NCBI GenBank assembly: GCA_902776615.1
Contig: CACYQU010000021.1
Coordinates: 1 to 34,486, forward strand
Direction: 5' to 3'
Length of the DNA stretch: 34,486 bases
Source: an uncultured bacterium
Lineage (GTDB): Bacteria > Verrucomicrobiota > Kiritimatiellia > RFP12 > UBA1067
The position numbers were made by a program, and so were the translations under genes. Below the pieces are notes generated by a model. The model did no database searches. It had not been told where the DNA came from and saw nothing but the letters and a program-made list of their open reading frames with translations. Shown here piece after piece: positions 21,693 through 23,752 of this stretch (its first letter is position 1; each line of letters starts with the position of its first letter).

Positions 21693-23117
21693 CTAAATGG
21701 TCATGCGAACGATCAATGCCGAGGCAATCGTCGCAATGCAGGCGAGAGATAAAACAGGAATGAAATAACGCAGCGCCCTTCCCATCACCTCTGCCTCTCG
21801 GCCAACAAGCCCGGCGGTGGCGCATCCAAGGACGAGCGACTGGGGACAGAGCATCTTGCCTATTCCCGCCCCCATGACATTTGCCGCCGCAAACAGATAG
21901 CGCTCCGCCTCGGATGAGGCCACGGACGCCTGAAGCGCGCCGAAAAGCACGTTGGAACTTGTTCCCGACCCCGTTACGAAACCGCCCAAAGCGCCAACAA
22001 CACTAGATACCGCGCAATAGCATCGGCCGGTTGACGCAATCAGCGCGTCCGCAAGCGCGCGGGTCATCCCTGATGCGCCCATAACCTTTCCGAGCGCAAG
22101 AACGGCACAAATCGTCAACAGCGCAGGCGAATAACGCCAAGCCGTGCGACCTGCAAGGCAGCCGAGCTTTCGGAAACCAAGGCCTTGGCAATACCCGCCG
22201 ACAAGCGCGGCCGCAAAGATTACGATGCCCGGCGATACCTTGCAGCTTTGCGGCAGAAACGCCGCGCAGCCCAGCGCCAGCACAACATATGCGAACGGCT
22301 GCCAAGCCCAGAGCTGCCGCTTCAAATCCATCGCCCCGCGCCGTCCGCCAGCCGCCGCAAGCGCAACCATAACCGCCAAACCGCCGACTATGTTCGGCAA
22401 TTCGCATCCCATGAAAGGCGCAACCGCAAGCCACGAACCCAAAAGCGCGATATCCGAGACAAGCGCCAAACGCCAGCACTCGCGCAGTCCGCGCCAGCCG
22501 TCCACTATAAAGAGAATCAAAAAAGGAGAAAGCGATGTAGCAAGAAGCTGCAGCACGGCAATCGTCGTCGTGAGGCGGCCAAGTTCAAGACCCGTCTCGC
22601 TTGCGAGCACCATCGTCGGCACGCCGACAGACCCGAAAGCGGTCGGTGTCGTATTTGCGACAAGGCAGCAGAGGACGGCTTTCATCGGATCGAACTTCAC
22701 GCCCACCAAAATAGCGCACGGAATCGCAACTGCCGTTCCGAAGCCAGCCATACCCTCCATGAACAAGCCGAATCCCCACGCGACAAGAAGCGCAAGAAAG
22801 CGGCTGTCGGACGAAAGGCCGGCCAGCGCACCCTTGATATCCGTTATGGCGTCCGACTCGACCGTCACCGCATAAGTGAACAGCGCGGCGACAATGACCA
22901 GCCCTATCGGATAAAGCCCGGTCGCAACGCCTCCAGCCGCAGACCCTGCTATCGCGCCCGGAGAAAGCCCAAAAGCGAAAAACGCTTCCGCGACGCCGAC
23001 GGCCAAAGCCGCAAGCGCCGCGCACCACGCCGGAAGGCGAAACACGATCAGGGCGACAATCAACGCCGCAATCGGCAGAATCGAAAAAACAAGCGTCATA
23101 CTGGCAGTCTTTCGCAT
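21693..23117 (-). CDS. L-lactate permease family transporter (LctP)
   Basis: The 474-aa protein has about 12 hydrophobic segments and matches the LctP family of lactate/glycolate:proton symporters. Typical stretches are FGLFMEGMAGFGTAVAIP, LCCLVANTTPTAFGSVGVP and GFVTGSGTSSNVLFGALQ. It is shorter than E. coli LldP (551 aa), so some loops are reduced. The start at 23117 has GGGAG 4 nt upstream, buried in a hairpin; an ATG at 23099 would begin directly in the first membrane segment. No lactate dehydrogenase gene is nearby. Lactate is the family substrate but other short hydroxyacids are possible. Confidence 0.88.
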   Translation of the reverse strand: MRKTASMTLVFSILPIAALIVALIVFRLPAWCAALAALAVGVAEAFFAFGLSPGAIAGSAAGGVATGLYPIGLVIVAALFTYAVTVESDAITDIKGALAGLSSDSRFLALLVAWGFGLFMEGMAGFGTAVAIPCAILVGVKFDPMKAVLCCLVANTTPTAFGSVGVPTMVLASETGLELGRLTTTIAVLQLLATSLSPFLILFIVDGWRGLRECWRLALVSDIALLGSWLAVAPFMGCELPNIVGGLAVMVALAAAGGRRGAMDLKRQLWAWQPFAYVVLALGCAAFLPQSCKVSPGIVIFAAALVGGYCQGLGFRKLGCLAGRTAWRYSPALLTICAVLALGKVMGASGMTRALADALIASTGRCYCAVSSVVGALGGFVTGSGTSSNVLFGALQASVASSEAERYLFAAANVMGAGIGKMLCPQSLVLGCATAGLVGREAEVMGRALRYFIPVLSLACIATIASALIVRMTI

Positions 23118-23121
23118 TCAT

Positions 23122-23160
23122 CTCCCGGCGCAAAGCAAATCACAGCCTTTGCGCCGGGAG
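23122..23160 (-). promoter_or_regulatory. 14-bp hairpin covering the ribosome binding site of the lactate permease
   Basis: CTCCCGGCGCAAAG (23122-23135) and CTTTGCGCCGGGAG (23147-23160) are perfect complements with an 11-nt loop. On the minus strand the 3' arm ends in GGGAG, the only Shine-Dalgarno of the permease, 4 nt before its ATG. It lies 6 bp after the stop of the upstream secreted-protein gene. It has no T-run. It could act as a terminator-like barrier, an RNA stability element or a translational switch. Confidence 0.75.
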
Positions 23161-23166
23161 TTTCGC

Positions 23167-23661
23167 TCAATACGAAACCATTCGCGTCTCGTAATGGCCC
23201 GGCTGCCAGATTCTGACAATCGTGCCGTTGGCCTGCACCTGGTCCACATACCGGCCCTCGACCCATACCTGGGTTGTTGTTGTCGCAGGCGCATTGATCA
23301 CAACGGGAGCAGGGTTTACCACCACGGGCGTCGAATTGACGACCACAGGCGTCTGCGTCACGACAGGCTGCTGCACGACAACCGTGCTGGATGTGTAGCG
23401 CGGCCCCACATACGCGTCTACGAGAGCTCCGCCGATTACGCCGCCCACGACGCCGCCCCAGAACGCGCCGCCGCCTCTACCCCAGCCGCTGTGGCGGTGA
23501 TGGTGGTGGCCATAGTAGGAATGATGCGGAACATGCATCCTGCGAGCCGGCCCGCCAAAACCATGCGGACGATGGCCTCCAAAGCCGGGCCCTCCGTGCG
23601 GACGGGCAAACGCACCTGCGGCAACCGCCGCTATCGCCAATGCTATGAGTAGTTTCTTCAT
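23167..23661 (-). CDS. Secreted Gly/His-rich protein with proline-valine repeats
   Basis: The 164-aa product has a signal peptide (about residues 1-20, ending AGAFA). Then come a Gly/Pro/His-rich part with HHHHRH, a glycine-zipper-like hydrophobic segment (GGAFWGGVVGGVIGGALVDAYVG), a low-complexity run of repeated TPVVV/NPAPVVI units, and a C-terminal VWVEGRYVDQVQANGTIVRIWQPGHYETR. The end resembles the small W-x-P-G-x-Y type domains of envelope proteins. The His cluster could bind metal. Its start at 23661 has GAGAGG upstream; reading from 23700 adds a basic stretch unlike a signal peptide. Function is unknown; an outer-membrane or periplasmic site is inferred. Confidence 0.7.
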   Translation of the reverse strand: MKKLLIALAIAAVAAGAFARPHGGPGFGGHRPHGFGGPARRMHVPHHSYYGHHHHRHSGWGRGGGAFWGGVVGGVIGGALVDAYVGPRYTSSTVVVQQPVVTQTPVVVNSTPVVVNPAPVVINAPATTTTQVWVEGRYVDQVQANGTIVRIWQPGHYETRMVSY

Positions 23662-23743
23662 GTTTACCTCTCTCTTTCTGCGACGCTTTTTTGCGTTCAC
23701 GAGCAGTTAGGGAGACGAGACGCAAACTTCTGACAAAAAAATT

Positions 23744-23752
23744 TGGTAAAAT
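23744..23752 (+). promoter_or_regulatory. Probable fabH promoter (TGGTAAAAT)
   Basis: An extended -10 box in an AT-rich stretch, 53 nt before the fabH ATG. No good -35 box is seen. It lies in the 143-bp divergent region shared with the secreted-protein gene. Confidence 0.4.

Follow-up and report, generated by a model that had tools for sequence, protein, structure and literature searches.

What does a long hairpin do when it stands between the stop codon of one gene and the start codon of the next? In the window (the whole stretch of DNA that was analysed, 34,486 nucleotides), which is contig 21 of the 2.35-Mb genome (2,354,932 bases in 127 contigs) of an uncultured bacterium of the gut, such a hairpin lies near 23.1 kb, where one minus-strand gene ends and another begins. 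The downstream gene encodes an L-lactate permease family protein (PF02652 in Pfam, E = 1.7e-96), and its closest relatives in named records belong to Kiritimatiellae, Verrucomicrobia, and Lentisphaerae genomes, many of which are rumen or gut MAGs. The upstream gene, P0002, encodes a protein with an N-terminus that looks like a signal peptide by eye, and has no match in Pfam. The features of the locus, in the direction of the minus strand, are as follows.

23167 to 23661, minus strand: P0002, the upstream gene (ATG at 23661, stop TGA at 23169-23167, 164 amino acids)
23160 to 23178, minus strand: adjoining minor 6-bp stem (GTTTCG/CGAAAC), predicted only
23122 to 23160, minus strand: hairpin with a perfect 14-bp stem and an 11-nt loop (arms 23122-23135 and 23147-23160)
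23100 to 23117, minus strand: possible six-codon N-terminal extension of the permease (MRKTAS), present only if ATG 23117 is used
21693 to 23099, minus strand: L-lactate permease family gene, downstream of P0002, with homology supporting its start at ATG 23099

According to the original prediction, a 14-bp stem without mismatches closes a loop of 11 nt and starts 6 nt past the stop codon of the secreted protein encoded upstream. The stem and loop can be read directly in the sequence, and the coordinates agree with the 6-nt distance from the P0002 TGA. On the plus strand, the arms are CTCCCGGCGCAAAG (23122-23135) and CTTTGCGCCGGGAG (23147-23160). The hairpin is confirmed as real and far beyond chance for the window. 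The fold of the plus strand over 23090-23190 has an energy of −34.2 kcal/mol (z = −4.5), and only one of 200 dinucleotide shuffles was as stable; on the mRNA strand, a 60-nt segment folds with −30.5 kcal/mol (z = −5.4, from 30 mononucleotide shuffles). Moreover, a stem of at least 14 bp, with a loop of 3 to 20 nt, occurs in none of 40 first-order Markov windows of equal length. The predicted minor stem holds the P0002 stop codon in its loop, and base 23160 can pair either there or in the main stem, so that the two compete for it. As a known RNA family the hairpin was rejected, its best Rfam matches falling far below the gathering scores; an RNA thermometer of the ROSE or fourU type does not fit either, with no Rfam match near the gathering score and a stem that is perfect and GC-rich rather than marginally stable.

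Where does translation of the permease begin? The frame offers two candidate ATGs, at 23117 and, 18 nt downstream, at 23099. The DNA homology to the two closest permeases, in genomes G059 and G058, starts exactly at 23099 in both cases when a 3.5-kb piece of the window is compared. In 27 of the 28 other distinct permease loci, a start codon coincides with the ATG-23099 equivalent or lies no more than three codons from it, as called by a script that takes the nearest start and is thus biased toward this outcome; the N-terminus of the exception, L100, does not align. In fourteen of the 28, no second in-frame start occurs over the preceding 12 codons, or over the shorter stretch up to a stop codon. 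The protein alignments with relatives begin mostly at residues 5-10. GGGAG (23126-23122) lies in the 3′ arm of the hairpin and ends 4 nt before ATG 23117, so the spacing given in the original prediction is correct for this ATG. With the anti-SD taken to be the canonical sequence, the pairing energy is −7.4 kcal/mol at ATG 23117 versus −0.9 kcal/mol, or almost none, at ATG 23099. In this genome, an SD of −6 kcal/mol or below is present at the best candidate ATG in 36% of 195 ORFs, as compared with 9% of 224 internal ATGs, and SD-poor starts also occur among the permease homologues (L087, L089, and L099). From these sequence comparisons, we lean toward ATG 23099 over ATG 23117 as the permease start. 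The hairpin ends about 22 nt upstream of ATG 23099, which is at the edge of or beyond the initiation footprint, and therefore the stem need not open for initiation there.

The original prediction named conservation of the stem in relatives as a check, and the outcome spoke against it. In the 180 nt upstream of the permease, none of the 28 other loci has a comparable stem, the longest perfect one being AT-rich and 10 bp long (L087). The gene pair is not conserved either: P0002 stands beside the permease only at the window's own locus among the 40 scanned (29 distinct; flanks of up to ~2.5 kb, shorter at contig ends). A conserved permease leader element was rejected, since neither the stem nor the gene pair is kept in other permease loci. 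As a separate observation, the closest permease relative, L094, carries its own long inverted repeat of unrelated sequence about −100 to −35 upstream, followed by a TATAAT-type promoter, and in L086 and L087 inverted repeats lie between facing promoter-like motifs upstream of the permease.

Does the hairpin switch permease translation? If ATG 23117 were the start, the stem would hide GGGAG, and ribosomes terminating on P0002, or another factor, would open it and thereby couple the permease to P0002. The proposal that the stem hides the permease ribosome binding site holds for ATG 23117, where the well-matched SD is inside the 3′ arm and opening of the −18 to +10 region is predicted to cost 27.5 kcal/mol; it fails for the homologous start, ATG 23099, where no SD lies within the stem. 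The P0002 stop codon, only 6 nt from the stem, speaks for such coupling, but a terminating ribosome would cover just the first few base pairs and leave most of the GC-rich stem in place. The SD-like GGGAG inside the stem resembles RBS-sequestering hairpins and translational coupling, the latter as described in PMC5318159, whereas here homology favors a start 18 nt further on and the stem is not conserved. With the start and the lack of conservation of both stem and gene pair against it, we regard such a switch as unlikely, and the data point weakly to a lock on the permease ribosome binding site. If true, it would represent a lineage-specific tie of transporter output to the translation of another gene. 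More generally, a check of the start codon against the homologues can reveal that an apparent translational lock is a post-stop hairpin.

A stem at this place may also serve ATG 23099 without being opened. According to PMC5318159, translation of fis in Escherichia coli dusB-fis is favored by a stem that lies close to where the upstream gene ends and isolates the two ORFs. By this precedent, the stem could keep the permease start region, ~22 nt downstream, from pairing with the upstream mRNA. The predicted cost of opening −18 to +10 is 10.3 kcal/mol at ATG 23099 versus 27.5 kcal/mol at ATG 23117, a comparison that concerns the accessibility of these two starts, but the stem is not conserved, and we consider such insulation highly improbable.

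To which gene does the hairpin belong? With the window counted, the 80 nt after the stop codons of the P0002 family fold with z ≤ −2 in 21 of 35 cases, and 15 of the 35 reach z ≤ −3; without the window, a stable fold (z ≤ −2) follows 20 of 34 P0002 relatives; the 80 nt before the permease starts reach z ≤ −2 in 3 of 29, the window being one. These z-scores derive from mononucleotide shuffles, and several of the structured 80-nt flanks lie in the coding sequence of the next gene, so the contrast is suggestive in tying the hairpin to the 3′ side of P0002 rather than to the 5′ side of the permease. After the stop codons of individual P0002 relatives, we found a 14-bp stem (L062) and an 11-bp stem (L058), both without a U-tract, a stem followed by GATTTTTGG (L154), and terminator-like stems flanked by A and T (L059 and L060).

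The rest of the genome provides the same kind of structure. In a survey of perfect stems over 812,486 bases (the window and 40 further stretches), with ORFs called by a simple codon score and gene ends therefore approximate, stems of at least 8 bp were counted after 21 of the 197 stops that leave room for one and in 22 of 1970 Markov controls, a roughly tenfold enrichment. For stems of at least 10 bp, the counts are 11 of 197 and 3 of 1970. Stems of at least 8 bp are present in 6 of 55 short tandem gaps, and in none of the 29 regions that precede divergent genes. The next 8 nt after the 21 post-stop stems contain at least four T in 10 cases and at most two in another 10. The hairpin of the window is thus an extreme member of this post-stop class, and an element of an ordinary kind.

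Many of these stems resemble the U-less post-stop hairpins reported in PMC8355165, which states that, of the best post-stop hairpins across 1060 species, about half have no U stretch. The window hairpin shares with them a GC-rich stem no more than 20 nt from the stop codon, the missing U-tract, and membership in a class commoner than chance, and about half of the post-stop hairpins in our genome sample are similar; it differs in its setting, a short gap between tandem genes, the second of which follows directly. An intrinsic (Rho-independent) terminator also has a stable GC-rich stem just 3′ of the stop codon, within ~80 nt as here. However, the mRNA-strand tail directly after this stem, ATGAATGC, contains two T in 8 nt and no U-tract, the 11-nt loop is long, and the hairpin is not among the sites listed by a terminator scan. 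As for a terminator in the antisense direction, no plus-strand gene ending at the hairpin is apparent, and the plus-strand tail from 23160 onward is GTTTCGCTC-like. These observations add to the evidence for many U-less stems right after stop codons in this Kiritimatiellae genome; among the papers listed by a literature search for termination data in Kiritimatiellae, none names the group.

We propose, with a probability of about 0.6, that the hairpin is a U-less 3′-end element of the P0002 mRNA—a partial terminator or an exonuclease block—at a lineage-specific junction. The hairpin would form in the RNA once the P0002 stop codon has been transcribed. Without a U-tract, it would most likely act either as a weak or partial terminator or as a barrier to 3′ exonucleases once Rho-dependent termination or processing has taken place, and thereby yield a stable P0002 message. 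Stems are known to halt 3′ exonucleases after Rho-dependent termination, and the genome contains a rho gene. The permease, presumably placed just downstream of the P0002 hairpin by a rearrangement, would receive only readthrough transcripts or use an unrecognised promoter, and its translation would begin just beyond the stem, at ATG 23099. Several points count against the 3′-end reading: textbook intrinsic termination finds no support in a stem lacking a U-tract, complete termination would leave the permease with no visible promoter, ATG 23099 has no SD, and the P0002 relative in the closest relative, G059, has no such hairpin.

The promoter type common in this genome is TTTGGTATAAT, with 43 sites of 10 or 11 matches in a 400-kb sample versus 2 for the reversed motif. 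On the minus strand, no site with at least 8 of 11 matches to it lies at 23096-23720. A permease promoter of this type in the 600 bases upstream was rejected, the best candidate having 7 of 11 matches, which is chance level. Since no permease promoter is visible, either some transcripts pass the hairpin or an unseen promoter serves the permease. Elsewhere at the locus, TTTGGTAAAAT (about 23739-23750, plus strand), ahead of a fabH-like gene, resembles the enriched extended −10 motif TTTGGTATAAT.

How did the two genes come together? G059 holds the closest P0002 relative (84% identity over the whole protein), and its homology to the unit of fabH-like gene and P0002 extends to window position 23177. 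In G059, this unit and the permease are on different contigs. The stop codon of the G059 P0002 relative overlaps the next reading frame directly (TGATGG), with no such hairpin, and the hairpin is therefore not a conserved mark of P0002. In the window, it sits in a ~77-nt junction between two homology blocks that has no G059 counterpart. A search with the 116-bp junction against 61 genomes of the genus, its own included, returned no DNA match across the hairpin: hits at E ≤ 10 were listed for 59 of the 61, most of them short and attributable to chance, and the strongest non-self hit (2.3e-4) is confined to the P0002 end. By these comparisons, the P0002-hairpin-permease junction appears lineage-specific, and no other genome has so far shown the hairpin at this position.

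Such a junction invites two further explanations. The permease may have gained its six-codon extension there, with its sole good SD inside the 14-bp stem, such that its output would require the end of the P0002 message to be opened by ribosomes or a factor; we find this very doubtful. Alternatively, the palindrome may be a functionless scar left by the rearrangement that joined P0002 and the permease. Its single copy and its position in a homology-free stretch between units unlinked in G059 are consistent with a scar, but the roughly tenfold enrichment of post-stop stems over the Markov controls provides a functional class that the hairpin fits, and a neutral origin is quite unlikely.

The malE-malF REP is an intercistronic stability hairpin. 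Like it, the window hairpin is a stem-loop that separates two genes on one strand and could protect the message of the first; unlike it, it is single-copy and belongs to no REP repeat family. A REP/BIME palindrome or other repeat family was rejected, since exact copies of the arm in the 2,354,932 bases are limited to the two in the hairpin itself, and four more places match it with a single mismatch.

Repeats of other kinds exist in this genome. The nearly palindromic 12-mer TCACCCTTAGGG has 54 exact sites, versus none for the reversed pattern; the sites are clustered, often with 22-bp spacing, and these short-period arrays probably form a repeat family. They lie outside the window (genome G000), among other places, at the following positions.

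C6, 17186-17285: TCACCCTTAGGG cluster
C9, 2440-2517: TCACCCTTAGGG cluster
C10, 493-589: TCACCCTTAGGG cluster
C24, 31071-31145: TCACCCTTAGGG cluster
C85, 3495-3569: TCACCCTTAGGG cluster

A second, similar family, CCCTATATAGG, has 32 exact sites versus one for the reversed pattern, spaced by ~23 bp or multiples thereof, and forms the following clusters in G000.

C4, 212-344: CCCTATATAGG cluster
C12, 22742-22843: CCCTATATAGG cluster
C13, 40068-40240: CCCTATATAGG cluster
C15, 27564-27713: CCCTATATAGG cluster
C18, 159-219: CCCTATATAGG cluster
C36, 4082-4230: CCCTATATAGG cluster
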